35,280 nt of DNA from Clostridia bacterium (GTDB taxonomy: Bacteria; Bacillota; Clostridia; Oscillospirales; CAG-272), in NCBI GenBank assembly GCA_017481495.1, contig JAFUPC010000049.1:1-35280 (forward strand). Direction: 5' to 3'. The notes beneath the pieces are model-generated. The model saw nothing but the letters and a program-made list of their open reading frames with translations. It was not told the DNA's origin and ran no database searches. Position numbers and translations under genes: made by a program. Positions 1,940-8,835 of the stretch are shown in pieces. The number at the start of each line of letters is the position of its first letter. The first letter of the stretch is position 1.

Positions 1940-2093
1940 GATAAACTTCTCCTTATTATGACTGCGGACATTCGTGCAGAGCTTCGCAGAGGACTGTCCT
2001 GATATTTGGGGATAATTTCGTGTCCCATCCGATGCGGCACAATTTGTCAGCATCGCCTGATCAAATCAGAAAGTGATGTCCGAAATCCTAAAT

Positions 2094-2122
2094 ATTATAC
2101 CACATTCCGCCGTATTTTGCAA
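2094..2122 (-). promoter_or_regulatory. Sigma-A promoter for rplS
   Basis: On the minus strand TTGCAA (2117-2122) and TATAAT (2094-2099) are separated by exactly 17 bp. The resulting 5' leader to the rplS start is about 145 nt and contains a small hairpin (CTGAT/ATCAG, 2057-2061 and 2065-2069). Ribosomal protein leaders often carry autoregulatory structures, but I cannot show one here. Confidence 0.85.
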
Positions 2123-2265
2123 GAGAATGGAAGAAACTGAATTGTAAATAAATTGTGAACCGAAGAGAAGAACGGAAACTGTCCCCAAGACAGGCACGCA
2201 CACCGCCGCCCGGGCATATGATGGTTCTGAAAACCAAATTTCCAGACGGAAGGAACGATGTTCTC

Positions 2266-4177: not shown

Positions 4178-4916
4178 TGGGCGTCAGTGTTACCAGTACG
4201 GGGTTGTGGTCGGAGGGGTGTTCGCCGTCGTAGAGCGTGTCGATGACACGGTAGCTGTCAACGGTATAGGCATCGCGGCTGACAAAGCAGAAGTCGATGA
4301 TGATTTCCAGATTTTTGTAGCCGTGGAACGTGGGCGCGGAAACGGTGTCCTTTGCAAGGAACTTGGAATCCGCGATCTTGCCGGAGGTGAAGAATTTATA
4401 CGTCGTGCTTGTGCCCTCATCGCAGTTGAAGTCGCCGGTCACGGTGACGGGGAGATCAAGGGTGTTGATAAACTTGTCAAGATAATGCGCCTGCAACAGC
4501 CGCACTTCGTCCTTGCCGTGGTCAAGGTGGGTGTTGATGTGGTACAGGTCGCGGTTATTGTCCTTGTCGTGCAATTTTGCATAAGTAAAGACACGCGGGC
4601 AGAGACTGTCCTCTACATAAGAGAAGACATCGGGCGTGGCAGTCAGCCACTTTGTGCCCTCATCGAGGACGTCAAAACGGTCTGCGCGGACAAAGATGGC
4701 GCTGTATTCGCCCTTGTCGCCGCCCTCACGGCCATGTCCGACAGCATGATAACCTGGGAGCTGCTCGCGGAGCAGATTCATCCACAGGGGTGTCGCTTCC
4801 TGCACGCCAAGAATGTCGGGGTCGCAGTCCGCGATCGCCGAAAAGACCTTTGCGGTGCGTTCGGGCGTGACGCCGCCGCACCAGAGATTGAAGCTCATGA
4901 TTCTGATGGGTTTCAT
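4170..4916 (-). CDS. Endonuclease/exonuclease/phosphatase (EEP) family hydrolase
   Basis: The protein has 248 residues from the ATG at 4916 (MKPIRIMSFNLW). All EEP signature positions are visible: SFNLW with Asn10, DILGVQEA with the metal-binding Glu40, the INTHLDHG His/Asp segment, TGDFNCDEG (Asp/Asn), and PSDHNPV with the catalytic His near the C-terminus. EEP enzymes cleave phosphodiesters or phosphomonoesters in DNA, RNA, lipids or sugars using a metal ion; the substrate here cannot be inferred. No signal peptide is seen, so it is probably cytoplasmic. An in-frame upstream ATG at 4928 (MVNIMKP) is part of the repeated intercistronic element. The gene overlaps the kinase-like gene that follows. 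Confidence 0.85.
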   Translation of the reverse strand: MKPIRIMSFNLWCGGVTPERTAKVFSAIADCDPDILGVQEATPLWMNLLREQLPGYHAVGHGREGGDKGEYSAIFVRADRFDVLDEGTKWLTATPDVFSYVEDSLCPRVFTYAKLHDKDNNRDLYHINTHLDHGKDEVRLLQAHYLDKFINTLDLPVTVTGDFNCDEGTSTTYKFFTSGKIADSKFLAKDTVSAPTFHGYKNLEIIIDFCFVSRDAYTVDSYRVIDTLYDGEHPSDHNPVLVTLTPNA

Positions 4917-5027
4917 TATATTAACCATGACTTTCGCGAAGCGAAAGTTTCCTTTCTTGTGGAATTGTGGCGTAAGCCACAAAACACGATTGAAAATTTA
5001 TATTCAAACTTCCTCCGTTCGGAAGAT
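4917..5027 (-). repeat. Structured intercistronic element, copy A
   Basis: This fills the whole gap between the GNAT stop and the EEP nuclease start. In transcript order it contains CTTCC/GGAAG (5021-5025 with 5009-5013), TTGAA/TTCAA (5003-5007 with 4990-4994), GTGGC/GCCAC (4976-4980 with 4967-4971), the Shine-Dalgarno AAGGAAA (4948-4954), and an 8-bp stem ACTTTCGC/GCGAAAGT (4941-4948 with 4930-4937), followed by CATG and then the chosen start. Copies B and C have the same order of parts. Confidence 0.75.
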
Positions 5028-5513
5028 TCAGGGGTTTTCTGTTTGTTTGCAATACATCCGGGAAAGACCGTCCGATGTGTTGACGGGGTAGAGATACTGC
5101 CATCCGTACCGCTCATAAAAGCCCACATGGTCGGTGACAAGATACAGGGTGCGGATGCCGTGTTCTCCGGCATGGGCGCATACCGTATCGAGCAGACGTC
5201 CTGCCAGACCCATACCGCGGGATTCCGGGCAGACATAAACGGCACAGACATTCGGCGCAAGGTCGGGACGGTCGTGAAAATCGTTACCGATGATGCCGAT
5301 GCCGCCGACGATTTCCTCTTTTTCCACGGCAATGAACCATGCGGGAACGCCGTCCCGGGACGTCAGCGCATCCGTCATGCTGTCAAGATATGCCGATACG
5401 GGAATGTTCCATTTGTCGGAAAACCATTCTGCCGCCGCCGGGATGCGGTCAGAATGTTGGGTGAGGGAAAGGATGACGGGGGGAGTCTTACTGTTCGTTT
5501 TCGATCTCCGCAA
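5028..5513 (-). CDS. GNAT family N-acetyltransferase
   Basis: The frame encodes 161 residues. The acetyl-CoA-binding motif A is clear at VYVCPESRGMGLAGRLLD (R/Q-x-x-G-x-G/A), preceded by a beta strand (VGGIGIIGNDF) and followed by LYLVTDHVGFYERYGW, the usual GNAT beta5-alpha4 end. Such enzymes transfer an acetyl group to an amine; the acceptor is unknown. The start is uncertain: no ATG is present before the conserved part. A TTG at 5513 inside the end of rpiB (26-nt overlap) is the best candidate, with GGAG nearby. The overlap indicates cotranscription with rpiB. The gene is followed by intercistronic element A. Confidence 0.8.
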   Translation of the reverse strand: MRRSKTNSKTPPVILSLTQHSDRIPAAAEWFSDKWNIPVSAYLDSMTDALTSRDGVPAWFIAVEKEEIVGGIGIIGNDFHDRPDLAPNVCAVYVCPESRGMGLAGRLLDTVCAHAGEHGIRTLYLVTDHVGFYERYGWQYLYPVNTSDGLSRMYCKQTENP

Positions 5514-5943
5514 TCAGCGCAAGCCGTTCGGTGTGACGGCCGCCGCCCTCAAATTCCGTTTCGATGAACAGCTTTACCATGTCGAGCGCCAGACTCGCAC
5601 CGACGACACGGCCGCCCAGACACAGGACGTTTGCATCGTTGTGCATCCGGGTCATGCGCGCGGAAAACGTGTCGGAACAGCACGCCGCACGAATGCCCTT
5701 GAATTTATTTGCCGCCATGCTCATGCCAATGCCCGTTCCGCAGACGAGAATGCCGCGCGTGCAGTCGCCCGACTGAATGGATTTACAGACCTTGGATGCG
5801 TATACGGGATAATTGACGCTGGCGGTGGAATCACAGCCGAAGTCCTCATAGGCAATGCCCGCTTTGTCAAGATAGGCAAGAATCTCTTTTTTCAGTTCGT
5901 ATCCGCCGTGGTCACAGGCAATGGCAAGTTTCAGATCGTTCAT
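5488..5943 (-). CDS. rpiB: Ribose-5-phosphate isomerase B
   Basis: The protein has 151 residues, the normal RpiB length. It contains the IACDHGGYELK substrate-binding start, the active-site CGTGIGMSMAANK segment (with the catalytic Cys), a CSDTFSARMTRMHNDANVLCLGGRVVG stretch split over the usual positions, and a GGGRHTERLALI end. It interconverts ribose 5-phosphate and ribulose 5-phosphate in the pentose phosphate pathway; related enzymes act on allose or galactose phosphates. AAAGGAG lies about 9 nt before the ATG at 5943. It follows the PHP gene after 41 nt and overlaps the GNAT gene. The assignment is secure at family level. Confidence 0.92.
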   Translation of the reverse strand: MNDLKLAIACDHGGYELKKEILAYLDKAGIAYEDFGCDSTASVNYPVYASKVCKSIQSGDCTRGILVCGTGIGMSMAANKFKGIRAACCSDTFSARMTRMHNDANVLCLGGRVVGASLALDMVKLFIETEFEGGGRHTERLALIAEIENEQ

Positions 5944-5984
5944 TTATTTTAATACTCCTTTGGGGAAAATGTGATTGATGTATT

Positions 5985-6956
5985 TCAGCAGACCGCACAC
6001 TGCATAAACGGCGCAATGTCGTCCTTTGTAAGACCGAGCACCGCCGCGATGCCATCGGCATGGGAGATCAGCGCAAGACCGTCCACGGAATGGGAGTCCG
6101 TGCCGAACGTGAAGCGGCATCCGGCATCCTTTGCGATGCGGTACAGCTCGATCAGACGGTTGTCGGAGAAGTCAAACGACACCTCCGTGATGGCGCCGAC
6201 GTTCAGTTCAATATAAATGCCCATCGTCGCTGCTTTTTCATAGCATTCCCGTGCATCGTCATCGGAAATGGCGCGCAGATAGTCGTTTTTCATCGCGTGC
6301 GGCACGCCGCAGGGCGAGAACGAATGCGCGATGCTGACCGGAAGCTGTTTTGCGAGCACTTCCAGCGTGGGATTTGCCAGCAGGGAGCGGAATGTGTCCA
6401 CGTTTGCCGCGTTGGTGTAGGCTTTGATGTCGGGCGCAAGGTCGGGGAAGATCTTCAGAAGATCGGCTTCTTTCAATGTCGCCGCCATCGCATCGAGATT
6501 CTTTTCGGGGAAATCGGGAAATGTCTCGGCGAGTTTTTTTCGGACAGCGGCGCGGGCTTCCAGAATTTCCGGGAAGTCTGCCATAACCTCGTTCCGCATA
6601 TGCAGATGGGAGTGCGGGATGAGCAGATAGTCAAAGTGCGAAGCACCCTCCGGGGACATTCCGAGAATGTCCTTGCAGGCGTAATATTCGGTTTCCGCAC
6701 CGAACAGAACGGAAAGACCGGCGGGCGCATCGCGAAATGCGTTTTTCGCTTCTTCGGCTTTCAGGATGGTCTGGTTTTTATACCAGTAGGAAGCGCCGGG
6801 AACCCGTTCGTCCCAGAGATGGTTGGACAGCCCGAAGACGGTCATACCGAGCGCCGCTTCTTTTTCGAGATACGCCTTTGTGGATGCCGCACGGTCGGAG
6901 CAGCAGGCAGAGAAGACGTTGTGGGTGTGGATGTCGTGGGTAATGTGAAGATTCAT
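5985..6956 (-). CDS. PHP-domain phosphoesterase (histidinol-phosphatase-like)
   Basis: The protein has 323 residues. The PHP metal site is visible: HDIHTHN at the N-terminus (HxH), GLSNHLWD, GAETEYY with the bridging Glu, LLIPHSHLHMR, and GTDSHSVDGL at the C-terminus, which provide the His/Asp/Glu ligands of the trinuclear site. Members include histidinol-phosphate phosphatase HisJ/HisK and other phosphoesterases. No histidine genes are present nearby, so the substrate is open. The ATG at 6956 comes right after intercistronic element B, which also supplies the ribosome binding site. It lies between tsaB and rpiB on the same strand. Confidence 0.82.
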   Translation of the reverse strand: MNLHITHDIHTHNVFSACCSDRAASTKAYLEKEAALGMTVFGLSNHLWDERVPGASYWYKNQTILKAEEAKNAFRDAPAGLSVLFGAETEYYACKDILGMSPEGASHFDYLLIPHSHLHMRNEVMADFPEILEARAAVRKKLAETFPDFPEKNLDAMAATLKEADLLKIFPDLAPDIKAYTNAANVDTFRSLLANPTLEVLAKQLPVSIAHSFSPCGVPHAMKNDYLRAISDDDARECYEKAATMGIYIELNVGAITEVSFDFSDNRLIELYRIAKDAGCRFTFGTDSHSVDGLALISHADGIAAVLGLTKDDIAPFMQCAVC

Positions 6957-7086
6957 ATAAATTCATGACTTTCGCGAAGCGAAAGTTTCCTTTCATGTGG
7001 AATTTGGATTGGTTTTGTGTATGCACAAACTCGCAGTTGCAAGACTGCGAAAGTCCCAAAACACATCTGAAAATTTGTTTTCAGAC
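6957..7086 (-). repeat. Structured intercistronic element, copy B
   Basis: In transcript order it starts at the tsaB stop codon with TCTGAAAA/TTTTCAGA (7078-7085 with 7066-7073). A longer middle insert follows, with a CGCAGT/ACTGCG stem (7044-7049 with 7032-7037), where copies A and C have GTGGC/GCCAC. Then come the AAGGAAA site and the stem ACTTTCGC/GCGAAAGT (6979-6986 with 6968-6975), CATG, and the PHP gene start. From CATG through the stem and ribosome binding site it is nearly identical to copy A. Confidence 0.75.
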
Positions 7087-7830
7087 ATCTCCATTTCTTT
7101 CGCGTTCCGCCTGGGACGGACGCAGATAGGTCGGTTTCAGCAGAAGATCGGTGAATACGGTCTTGTCCGCTGCTTCGTCATAAATGCGTTTTGCCGTCAT
7201 GGCAACGGAATAGCCGGACTGATACCGGATGATCTCCGGCACCTCTTTGCAGTGCGGAAGATGAATCTCCTTTTCCGTCACGCGGCATCCCTCACCGACA
7301 AAATATACAGGGTGAGGAAGCGGTGCAAGTCGTGCGGCAAGCTGTTCTGCGGAAAGCATATTGTCCTCTGTTATCCGAGTGCGCGTGACCGTGCCGTCGG
7401 ATGCTGTTTCGTATAAAAACAGCGCGGTATAAAGCTGGGAGCGGCGCGCGTCCATGACCGGGCAGGCGTAAAAGGGTGAGCCAACGTTGACTGCCGTCAA
7501 CCCGGTGACTGCCGTCGGGCGCAGATTTTCCGAAAGTGCCTCAAGCGTGGAGACGGGAACGCACGGGATGTTCCGGCCGAACGCCAGTCCTTTGATGATG
7601 GAAACGCCGATGCGCACGCCGGTAAAGGAGCCGGGGCCTGCGGAGACCGCAAACAGGTCGATGTCAGAGACCGCGGTACGGGCGTTGGCAAGCACGTTTT
7701 CGACCATGTTCAGCATGGTCTCGGAGTGGGCCAGCGTTCCGTTCTGCACGGCAAGACCGAGCGGCTTTGTGCCATCCGTCAGCGCGGCGGCCGCCGTCTG
7801 TGCGGTGGTGTCGATTGCGAGTATTTTCAT
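7081..7830 (-). CDS. tsaB: tRNA threonylcarbamoyladenosine (t6A) factor TsaB
   Basis: The protein has 249 residues from the ATG at 7830 (MKILAIDTTAQTAAAALTD). The ASKHA-fold start ILAIDTT, LAHSETMLNMVENVL and the hallmark VSAGPGSFTGVRIGV segment near residues 63-77 identify TsaB, followed by KGLAFGRNIPCVPVSTLEAL. TsaB is a non-catalytic partner that activates TsaD in making t6A37 in ANN-decoding tRNAs. It lies downstream of tsaE as in many Bacillota; tsaD and a rimI-type acetyltransferase do not follow directly, since a PHP gene comes next. The open frame extends upstream into intercistronic element C, but the family start is at 7830. Its stop codon lies inside element B. Confidence 0.93.
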   Translation of the reverse strand: MKILAIDTTAQTAAAALTDGTKPLGLAVQNGTLAHSETMLNMVENVLANARTAVSDIDLFAVSAGPGSFTGVRIGVSIIKGLAFGRNIPCVPVSTLEALSENLRPTAVTGLTAVNVGSPFYACPVMDARRSQLYTALFLYETASDGTVTRTRITEDNMLSAEQLAARLAPLPHPVYFVGEGCRVTEKEIHLPHCKEVPEIIRYQSGYSVAMTAKRIYDEAADKTVFTDLLLKPTYLRPSQAERERNGDV

Positions 7831-7928
7831 AATTATGACCATCACTTTTGCTGCGCGAAAGTGATTTCCTCTCTTATTTGGAATGTGGCGCAAGCCACAA
7901 AATACGGTCTGAACATTTATTTTCAGAC
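7831..7928 (-). repeat. Structured intercistronic element, copy C
   Basis: In transcript order: GTCTGAA/TTCAGAC (7922-7928 with 7907-7913), which overlaps the tsaE stop codon; GTGGC/GCCAC (7894-7898 with 7885-7889); an AGAGAGGAAA ribosome binding site; then a stem ATCACTTT/AAAGTGAT (7858-7865 with 7841-7848) and the tsaB start. The last stem has a different sequence from that of copies A and B but still pairs fully, which argues that the structure is kept. Confidence 0.75.
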
Positions 7929-8375
7929 TGTTTCCTTGTTTATCGTAATGGTTCGCCGGTTTTCGTCGGTGGGGTCTTTTTTGATCGTCAGACGGTAGTG
8001 CGTATCCGGCAGGGCATAAGGGATCTTTTCACACCATTCGGCAAAGCAGTAGCCGCCGCGGTCGAGGTAATCCCAATACCCGATGGAATCAAGCGAATCC
8101 TCATCGTCGATGCGGTAGAGGTCAAAATGGAACAGAAGTCCGTTTGTTCCGTGATACTCGTTGACGATGGTGTAGGTCGGACTCTGGACGTGGGATGCGG
8201 GGGCGATGATCTCCGCCACGCCGCGCACGAACGCGGTCTTCCCGGCACCGAGGTCGCCGTACATCGCGGTGAACGCGCCGCCCGGTTCCTCTGCCAGAAG
8301 ATACCGTGCAAATTCCCGCCCTGCGTTCTCCGTTTCGGCGGTATTTTCCGTTTCAAACGAAAAAATCGGTTCCAT
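7923..8375 (-). CDS. tsaE: tRNA t6A biosynthesis ATPase TsaE
   Basis: The protein has 150 residues, the usual TsaE length. It shows Walker A GDLGAGKT (residues 40-47), SPTYTIVNEY (65-74), the HFDLYR signature (83-88), and the EW pair in CFAEWCEKI near 113-114. TsaE binds and hydrolyses ATP and cycles the TsaB-TsaD complex during t6A formation. A GGAGGATG site precedes the ATG at 8375, and the gene is the first of the minus-strand operon, with a promoter about 40 bp upstream. Its stop codon lies within the first stem of intercistronic element C. Confidence 0.95.
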   Translation of the reverse strand: MEPIFSFETENTAETENAGREFARYLLAEEPGGAFTAMYGDLGAGKTAFVRGVAEIIAPASHVQSPTYTIVNEYHGTNGLLFHFDLYRIDDEDSLDSIGYWDYLDRGGYCFAEWCEKIPYALPDTHYRLTIKKDPTDENRRTITINKETV

Positions 8376-8415
8376 TGTCTGTCATCCTCCTGATTTTCTC
8401 TGAATTCTCTCCTAT

Positions 8416-8444
8416 ATTATACCACATAATACGCAATTTTGAAA
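8416..8444 (-). promoter_or_regulatory. Probable promoter of the tsaE operon
   Basis: On the minus strand a perfect TATAAT (8416-8421) lies 17 bp downstream of a weaker TTTCAA (8439-8444). It is divergent from the SRP RNA promoter about 60-110 bp away. Confidence 0.6.
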
Positions 8445-8504
8445 GAGGTTTCGGCAAATAATTGTTAGCGATGTGTGAATTTTATGAAAAATGCGGATTT
8501 CCTC

Positions 8505-8533
8505 TTGCAAAAAACGCAATTATCTGGTATAAT
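8505..8533 (+). promoter_or_regulatory. Sigma-A promoter for SRP RNA / dnaX
   Basis: TTGCAA (8505-8510) and TATAAT (8528-8533) are separated by 17 bp. Transcription would begin near 8540, just before the predicted 5' end of the SRP RNA. Confidence 0.85.
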
Positions 8534-8540
8534 ATTAAAA

Positions 8541-8835
8541 GCAAGATATGAAGTAAGGCCATACCAGCCGGGGCGTCAGCGGTGCCTTGTACCTGCAATC
8601 CGCTATAGCAGGGGTGGTTTCCTTTTATAAGGTTTTGGCTCGTGTGGTCTGCTCTGCAAGAGTATTGTCAATGACGAACGGGTCTTGCGCAATCGGATGC
8701 TGTGAACCATGTCAGGTGGGGAACCAAGCAGCAGTAAGCAGAAGTTCCGGTGTGTTGCAAGGGTGCCTGTTCCGAGGCCGTTTCTGCAGGTGCGCACATG
8801 GGGTAAGATCGAATTTTGGGTGTATGGTCTTCCTT
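8541..8835 (+). ncRNA. ffs: SRP RNA (Bacillus-type large SRP RNA, ends approximate)
   Basis: The 5' part carries the Alu-domain sequence GTGCCTTGTACCTGCAATCC, as in Bacillus scRNA. The S-domain core is at about 8702-8745: CTGTGAACCATGTCAGG, a GGAA tetraloop and AAGCAGCAGTAAGC, which is the Ffh-binding helix 8. The two ends pair: GGCCATAC (8557-8564) with GTATGGTC (8822-8829). The length of about 290 nt fits Bacillota SRP RNAs, which keep an Alu domain. It guides signal-peptide-bearing ribosomes to the membrane with Ffh. It lies directly upstream of dnaX, the conserved order in this phylum. The exact 5' and 3' ends are estimates; a T-rich stretch follows. Confidence 0.92.

Follow-up and report, generated by a model that had tools for sequence, protein, structure and literature searches.

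What recurs before the start codons of three neighbouring genes in a single stretch of clostridial DNA? The window analysed here is a 35,280-nucleotide stretch of contig JAFUPC010000049.1 (assembly GCA_017481495.1). A first-pass annotation, made from the letters of the sequence, had proposed three copies of a structured element at the junctions GNAT/EEP, tsaB/PHP and tsaE/tsaB, here called copies A, B and C. All three are present, all lie on the minus strand and each folds better than any of 200 dinucleotide shuffles (z = -4.0, -3.8 and -3.3, respectively). The element measures 93-130 nt and, read 5' to 3', comprises a 5' stem, a middle stem or three-way junction, the Shine-Dalgarno (SD) sequence AAAGGA, a last stem and ATGGTCATA, followed after about 3 nt by the gene's own ATG. 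AUG1 denotes the element's AUG, behind the last stem (the bridging hairpin). The parts are as follows.

4917..5009, minus strand: copy A, whole element, before the exo_endo_phos gene (ATG 4916-4914); ends from nested copies and relatives
4988..5009, minus strand: copy A 5' stem GTTTGAA...TTCAATC with one mismatch, read directly; the stem covaries in other copies
5011..5016, minus strand: native SD GGAGGA of the downstream gene, upstream of copy A; AGGAGG adjoins the start codon in G001, G003 and G004
4965..4982, minus strand: copy A middle stem TTGTGGC/GCCACAA (sequence and folding)
4950..4955, minus strand: copy A own SD AAAGGA (sequence)
4930..4948, minus strand: copy A bridging hairpin ACTTTCGC-TTC-GCGAAAGT (sequence and folding)
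4917..4928, minus strand: copy A tail with AUG1 at 4928-4926, 12 nt ahead of the gene's ATG and in its frame (sequence)
6957..7086, minus strand: copy B, whole element, before the PHP-like gene (ATG 6956-6954); absent here in G001 and G004, another subtype in G003
7065..7086, minus strand: copy B 5' stem, containing the tsaB stop TGA (7083-7081) (sequence)
7004..7059, minus strand: copy B three-way junction with closing TTGG/CCAA and arms TCGCAGT/ACTGCGA and TTTGTG/CACAAA; the junction covaries in other copies
6988..6993, minus strand: copy B own SD AAAGGA (sequence)
6968..6986, minus strand: copy B bridging hairpin (sequence and folding)
6957..6966, minus strand: copy B tail with AUG1 at 6966-6964, 10 nt ahead of the gene's ATG and not in its frame (sequence)
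7831..7928, minus strand: copy C, whole element, between tsaE and tsaB (tsaB ATG 7830-7828); found before tsaB in 0/8 congeners
7907..7928, minus strand: copy C 5' stem, containing the tsaE stop TGA (7925-7923) (sequence)
7933..7937, minus strand: native SD AAGGA of tsaB, upstream of copy C; adjoins the start codon in G001, G004 and G007
7884..7899, minus strand: copy C middle stem TGTGGC/GCCACA (sequence and folding)
7867..7870, minus strand: copy C own SD core AGGA (sequence)
7841..7865, minus strand: copy C bridging hairpin ATCACTTT...AAAGTGAT, with a single mismatch inside (sequence and folding)
7831..7842, minus strand: copy C tail ATGGTCATAATT; its AUG1 shares the frame of the tsaB ATG, which follows 12 nt on (sequence)

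Several details of the first description change on inspection. In copies B and C the 5' stem contains the upstream stop codon; in copy A the stem close to that codon (5026-5011) pairs the native SD, and the real 5' stem of the element lies at 5009-4988. Copy B does differ in its middle part, but what stands there is a three-way junction and not a stem, one of several subtypes of a region that is variable or simplified between copies. The last stem of copy C, reported as fully paired, consists of 8 bp, a C-A mismatch and 2 bp. The near identity of copies A and B across the last stem is borne out (98% over 41 nt), as is the order of SD and last stem, with the added precision that this stem separates the SD from the start codon.

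The ends of the element, AGTCTGAAA and ATGGTCATA, are set by three nested copies, in which one element lies inside another. A study of pneumococcal repeats (PMC3049150) lists as traits of MITEs a high AT content, terminal inverted repeats, a highly paired structure and target site duplication. Two of these are seen here, a low GC content (0.35, 0.38 and 0.40 in copies A, B and C vs 0.55 in the window) and a highly base-paired structure; the two ends are not inverted repeats of each other. No target site duplication is visible on comparing tsaB with G001; at argH only the right flank is comparable, and few sites allow the comparison.

The covariance-model search of this genome and its relatives that the first-pass annotation had suggested returns further copies. 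The own genome has 36 matches at E <= 0.01 (a copy split between contig ends may have entered this count twice), and a pattern of the last stem without a start codon has 21 matches in it vs 0 in a backward control. One congener holds at least 135 model matches, and 7 of the 9 genomes of the genus, the own included, have matches, about 280 in total. In the family, 55 of 295 genomes have matches at E <= 0.001, and in the order 15 of 394, from five families, at E <= 0.0001; both counts are lower bounds because few candidates were scored per genome, and the genomes are incomplete MAGs. The spread over family and order is patchy, and near-identical copies stand at unrelated genes. Autonomous long copies were rejected on the strength of three 5' stems in the own genome (L207, L208 and L209) that have no 3' hairpin and lead directly into a gene.

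Pairing is maintained across copies. In 27 copies chosen for a complete junction (32 picked, with L048, L077, L094, L182 and L204 excluded before alignment, some of them for a diverged 5' stem), 90.2% of the cells of 38 pairs are paired and 19 pairs have changed on both sides; none of 500 shuffles scores as high and slid controls reach 35-44%. A 5' stem search on 117 copies left 31 without a stem, and part of the 86 found are false. Stems are kept far more often than broken, in agreement with the idea that sequence differences preserving the pairing reflect selection on the RNA; neither of the two outcomes named beforehand as telling against the element, a lack of further copies or stems broken as often as kept, is what the genomes contain. 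The SD is nearly invariant in the A3 copies, for which the search pattern held GGAA. A UUCC/GGAA helix masking the SD was rejected as a conserved part, having no double changes and pairs formed in 55% and 87% of cells. RNAalifold does draw this helix on A6, where double changes are again missing.

Copies differ greatly in the sequence and length of the last stem, yet few bases are left outside it. Among segments caught by the SD and ATGGTCATA alone, 68 of 72 distinct ones fold into one closing stem vs 16.7 expected from shuffles. The linear distance from the SD to the element's AUG is 20-44 nt, but in 69 of 70 segments the predicted stem takes up all but 0-8 nt of it. In two hairpin-less copies, 7 and 4 nt separate the SD from the start codon. 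Because so few bases remain outside the predicted stem despite the long linear distance, the hairpin likely bridges the gap between SD and AUG1. Between the SD and the host ATG at least 12 nt remain outside the stem, which is long against the optimum for SD spacing.

Where does the element sit? Of 101 distinct copies that the model found and that have an assignable ORF, 88 show the host ATG exactly 12 nt past AUG1, and every copy with an assigned ORF reads in the sense direction of its gene. The underlying set holds the best-scoring 117 of about 280 genus matches, with one antisense row (L040) dropped and one duplicate tail merged. R1 and R2 include ATG columns and the stem, so that counts on their matches lean towards both, and patterns lacking these parts served as controls. 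With no start codon in the pattern, an ORF start lies within 20 nt in 19 of the 21 stem-pattern matches, 18 of them at the usual distance (L008 starts 20 nt on, L005 lacks an ORF start where one is expected and L014 leaves the contig). With neither stem nor start codon in the pattern, an ATG at +12 is found in only 22 of 32 matches among the fetched loci. The constant feature is the position between SD and start codon and not the operon junction; other copies follow promoter-like sequences, as judged by eye. Some precede genes resembling der, plsX and glnS (named by eye), which are essential, and these copies would therefore have to permit translation.

The role of AUG1 itself is less uniform. 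Of 117 copies, 18 have a triplet other than ATG in its place, as do 17 of the 88 whose spacing is 12 nt; in 12 of 101 its frame differs from that of the host ATG (spacings 10, 11, 13 and 19), and in-frame stops between the two, present in 3 of 88, are not avoided; AUG1 is therefore not needed everywhere. An obligatory fusion of AUG1 to the gene was rejected, since stops in the NNN codon are not avoided (the same 3/88). Conservation at the third positions of GTC and ATA (72% and 76%) is lower than at the adjacent positions, a pattern that is suggestive and no more.

Relatives show how these leaders look in its absence. By eye and by folding, ordinary SD-start leaders precede argH in 8 of 8 congeners, der in 7 of 7 and tsaB in 6 of 8. 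At tsaB, AAGGAAAG-ATT-ATG of G001 corresponds to AAGGAAAC-(element)-ATT-ATG in the own genome, and at argH the ACC before the ATG is identical to that of 5 of 8 relatives. In 42 of 64 distinct copies an SD core stands no more than 14 nt ahead of the 5' stem, vs 17 of 192 control windows; in the other 22 none was found there. Because most relatives have the same genes without it, the element was likely inserted at the genes where it is found. Mobility, as first suggested, is thus the part of the "mobile intercistronic element" that stands; its restriction to operon junctions was too narrow. In G002 and G006, tsaB has a predicted hairpin between SD and start codon with the rest of the element missing, so such leaders may also arise without it.

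We think it probable that these copies form a family of small DNA elements which likely moved from gene to gene and carry their own SD together with a hairpin predicted to bring that SD near a start codon. The element would land about 3 nt before the start codon, leaving the gene's own SD far upstream where it is still visible. Ribosomes would bind the element's SD, and initiation could follow at AUG1, which in most copies shares the frame of the host AUG, and/or at the host AUG itself, by analogy with T4 genes 38 and 25; the 5' stem and junction may end or shield upstream translation and would sense no signal. More tentatively, and with the balance of our judgement against it as a whole, the element may seek out start codons: it would sever the native ribosome-binding site, supply a hairpin-bridged spare, be able to stop the upstream gene by a stop codon that the element brings and mostly add an M-V-I-X leader, with tens to hundreds of starts rewired genome by genome across the order.

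Patchy spread, near-identical copies at unrelated genes and nesting would also be expected of a parasitic MITE- or REP-like element, whose stems serve its own movement as DNA, whose start-codon sites are either survivors or the target and whose SD does no more than spare the host gene. Single-strand transposons, too, have a stem at each end and lack inverted terminal repeats. We nevertheless regard this account as unlikely: neutral sites are hardly used (the 19 of 21 stem-pattern matches above), a variable last stem with few bases outside is not predicted by DNA recognition alone, and no Y1 transposase partner was found. The Y1 transposase (PF01797) is missing from three of the seven element-bearing genomes of the genus (G000, G006 and G008, all incomplete) and R2 matches nothing up to E 1 near any of 14 Y1 loci, so a Y1 (IS200/IS605-type) driver was rejected. 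Carriage by viruses or plasmids was rejected too: plasmid and phage collections gave no match to one full copy and viral contigs none to the strict pattern, and the 38 viral stretches fitting a loose pattern are about the chance level by our estimate; R2 matches among them reach E 0.014 at best.

A conserved, covarying three-way junction beside an SD could instead belong to a cis-regulatory RNA (riboswitch, thermometer or protein-binding leader) tuning the translation of many genes in concert. This we consider improbable, as the middle part changes or is simplified from copy to copy and the SD-masking helix is not conserved; the downstream proteins have no common theme by eye, and because these genes look unrelated the regulon-type motif once proposed is not supported. 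Rfam has no match up to E 5 in window positions 4800-8000 or up to E 1 in five loci (a gathering scan of the window gives only SRP RNA, elsewhere), and a search of titles and abstracts, covering subscription papers thinly, recognised no such element. On another account the element is cut out of the mRNA or skipped on it, and the native SD would again face the start codon; where that SD is visible, the element does lie between the two. The probability is very small, given that 22 of 64 copies have no SD core within 14 nt upstream, that the copies found carry their own SD (though the searches favour those with one) and that all self-splicing introns known to us are far larger than 93-130 nt. Smaller still is that of vertically inherited leaders lost in relatives without any movement: some copies do occupy the same gene in two species (L080/L081 and L091/L092), but argH and der are without the element in every relative read, G003 has a different subtype at the tsaB/PHP site and nearly identical copies precede unrelated genes.

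Bacterial interspersed repeats usually sit where harm is small. The element does the reverse, occupying the most sensitive bases of a gene while seeming to carry the parts for continued translation. If this is true, one genome would offer a natural library of more than 100 bridged ribosome-binding sites with stems differing in length and sequence, on which the T4 gene 38 idea becomes testable at scale; start-site annotation, operon coupling and expression would differ between sister species independently of the genes themselves, and the question arises how a mobile element finds a start codon. BIME/REP and ERIC are likewise intergenic, structured and multi-copy, but they are palindromic or inverted-repeat sequences that are not known to carry an SD of their own, a distinction drawn here from their general anatomy. 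The pneumococcal BOX, RUP and SPRITE repeats are small, structured and interspersed, with BOX being modular; they are sometimes nested, and some are transcribed within operons (PMC3049150). They resemble the element in structure and in insertion into one another; they are over-represented between convergent genes (PMC3049150), whereas the element, in all copies with an assigned ORF, lies sense to the gene, at a fixed distance before the start codon and with its own SD. Placement is shared by the TAACTGA repeats of Beggiatoaceae, many sets of which lie forward-oriented just upstream of start codons of genes without pattern (PMC4679880), as here. These are simple heptamer arrays with an SD in only about 10% of repeat regions and no stem predicted for the repeat itself, and the part of that report consulted describes no comparison with empty sites (PMC4679880). 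A mechanistic parallel is found in the leaders of T4 genes 38 and 25, in which, as summarized in a review (PMC3014915), structure shortens the SD-AUG spacing from 22 to 5 nt and from 27 to 11 nt. In the element, structure between SD and AUG is predicted to reduce 20-44 nt to 0-8 nt before AUG1; the T4 leaders are single phage leaders, whereas the element is repeated, has likely moved and brings a 5' stem and junction with it.

One element is common to three junctions on the minus strand of the window, those before the exo_endo_phos gene, the PHP-like gene and tsaB:

4917..5009, minus strand, copy A (93 nt), upstream of the exo_endo_phos gene
6957..7086, minus strand, copy B (130 nt), upstream of the PHP-like gene
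7831..7928, minus strand, copy C (98 nt), upstream of tsaB

The gene names are taken from Pfam, where the tsaB product matches the TsaD family; the PHP-like gene has no Pfam match at E 0.001 and keeps its name from the first-pass annotation. The element consists of a 5' stem (GTCTGAAAA...TTTTCAGAC), a middle stem (TTGTGGC/GCCACAA, a three-way junction instead in copy B), a Shine-Dalgarno sequence (SD, GAAAGGAA) 5' of the last stem and the last stem itself (ACTTTCGC/GCGAAAGT). Its 3' end is N-ATGGTCATA, followed by about three bases and the start codon. Copies A, B and C each fold better than 200 of 200 shuffles, and their GC content is 0.35-0.40 compared with 0.55 for the window. The upstream gene ends, in copies B and C, at the TGA within the 5' stem; in four congeners (G001, G003, G004 and G007) the tsaE stop and tsaB start overlap as ATGA. 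Beyond tsaE, on the opposite strand, lies a bacterial large SRP RNA (Rfam RF01854, window 8559-8827, plus strand, 162.6 bits). At window 2092-2125, 8414-8447 and 8502-8536 lie three AT-rich stretches, related to each other, in which promoter sequence like TGGTATAATAT occurs on either strand.

The element is a real family. Searching the 3.23 Mb genome for SD plus last stem (23 nt, up to three mismatches) gives 21 matches (reversed pattern: 0), and the 5' stem pattern varies in a compensatory way, for instance as ATCTG...CAGAT and GTTTG...CAAAC. The covariance model R1, built on 19 of the 3' modules, has 36 matches in this genome (E <= 0.01; one copy split by contig ends is possibly counted twice); seven of the nine genomes in the genus have matches, at least 135 of them in G007, where 150 candidates were scored. 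R2, built on 84 copies, finds the element in 28 of the family's 71 genera (55 of 295 genomes, E <= 0.001) and in 13 of the order's 169 genera, which belong to five families (15 of 394 genomes, E <= 0.0001). Among named genomes a strict pattern finds 18 stretches. Every one comes from a MAG whose title reads Clostridia, Clostridiales or Oscillospiraceae bacterium, and for 13 the title also contains goat, roe deer, water deer, yak or 'Lapin'.

The pairing is conserved. In 27 copies picked for a full junction, 90.2% of the cells in 38 named pairs are paired, compared with 35-44% when partners are slid by 1-3 columns; both-sided changes occur in 19 of the 38 pairs (104 cells), a level reached in 0 of 500 shuffles. 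In 78 distinct copies from other species the last stem alone shows 51 double changes and 98.1% paired cells; this alignment was fitted to the model and is hence biased towards the stem. A stem-free control pattern (SD and ATGGTCATA only, 16-46 free bases between) has 106 matches in 6 of 9 genomes, with 1 for the reversed pattern; 68 of its 72 distinct segments hold one closing stem of at least 5 bp (16.7 expected from shuffles). One subtype, in this genome, G001 and G003, has an extra hairpin like CCCGAATTTCGGAACGAAATTC directly 5' of the SD (L012, L016, L018 and L021; also L097, L188, L191, L198 and L200). Loci L148 and L176 have an additional stem module replacing the usual parts (GGCTGTTGCATG...CATGTAAATGCAACAGCC in L148), relatives of which precede ATGGTCATA elsewhere in G007.

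The element is bound in its site to the start codon. An ORF starts within 20 nt in 19 of the 21 pattern matches, at the usual distance in 18 (exceptions L005 and L014, and L008 with a start at 20 nt). An ORF could be assigned for 101 of 116 distinct tails (the segment after the last stem) in model-found copies and not for the other 15; in 88 of the 101 the ATG of the downstream gene (host ATG) lies exactly 12 nt behind AUG1, the element's own AUG behind the last stem, the other spacings being 13 (six copies), 11, 10 and 19 (two each) and 9 nt (one). ATG is at +12 in 22 of 32 matches of the stem-free pattern, from loci fetched for 30 of the 106 hits. By eye, copies lie both within operons and downstream of promoter-like sequences, and the downstream genes have no evident relation to one another.

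Movement of the element between genes is well supported by sequence comparison, and the family is likely to be mobile. The element is before tsaB in 0 of 8 congeners and the leader is an ordinary SD-start in six, being AAGGAAAG-ATT-ATG in G001 compared with AAGGAAAC-[element]-ATT-ATG in this genome. In G002 (L124) and G006 (L122) an SD precedes a predicted hairpin of another kind, and the element's remaining parts are absent; stem-bearing leaders may be commoner in the clade than the element itself. Ordinary leaders are found before argH in 8 of 8 relatives and before der in 7 of 7 (der of G004, at a contig start, was left out); ACC directly precedes the argH ATG in this genome and in five of eight relatives. 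Among six orthologues of the copy A gene (at least 61% identity) the element is absent in G001, G003, G004, G006 and G008, and G007 has the SD-stem-ATGGTCAT module, its stem being different throughout. The copy B site is empty in G001 and G004, holds a different subtype cut by a contig end in G003 and has a different next gene in the other readable congeners. An SD core in the 14 nt before the 5' stem, the remnant expected of insertion between SD and start codon, is present in 42 of 64 distinct copies compared with 17 of 192 control windows; the other 22 showed no such core, as would follow if the gene did not need its native SD any more. In three nested copies (L153, L163 and L176) a second element directly follows the ATGGTCATA or ATGGTTATA of the first before the same start codon, so both ends are fixed. 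Recent spread is indicated by several near-identical copies in this genome, which agree over ~135 nt and stand at unrelated genes. In near-identical copies of this genome the last nine bases (ATGGTCATA, ATGATCATA, ATAGTCATA, ATGATTATC) are more variable than the preceding hairpin (L012, L013, L015-L018, L020, L021 and L027).

The family is apparently without a name so far: it matches no Rfam family, and no element of this kind was recognised in the literature searched. It is AT-rich and highly paired as a MITE would be, yet inverted terminal repeats are missing and readable sites show no target duplication, and we do not file it as one. A Y1 transposase was considered as partner and dropped, since its occurrence does not go with the element; in phage, plasmid and viral collections the element did not turn up more often than by chance. 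A masking helix over the SD found no support.

The element has an SD of its own. Spacing was measured in the 70 of 72 segments whose predicted fold has a single outermost pair: AGGA and AUG1 are 20-44 nt apart linearly, with only 0-8 bases outside the predicted stem in 69 of the 70. At L207 and L208 in this genome hairpin and tail are absent, and the SD lies 7 and 4 nt before the start codon. From these folds we infer bridged initiation on the element's SD, the simplest reading being that the hairpin would bridge the gap to the AUG. This geometry would favour AUG1 as start codon. Against its sole use, AUG1 is absent in 18 of 117 copies (17 of the 88 with +12 spacing) and out of frame with the host ATG in 12 of 101, copy B among them, and in-frame stops between the two are not avoided (3 of 88); in such copies, at least, the host AUG would have to be used. 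We consider it reasonably probable that a mobile element with its own SD and a hairpin-bridged start explains the whole, our confidence being slightly reduced by the two tsaB leaders of eight with a different hairpin behind the SD. The bridge would act as in T4 genes 38 and 25, for which the published account (PMC3014915) describes a structure between SD and AUG closing the gap.
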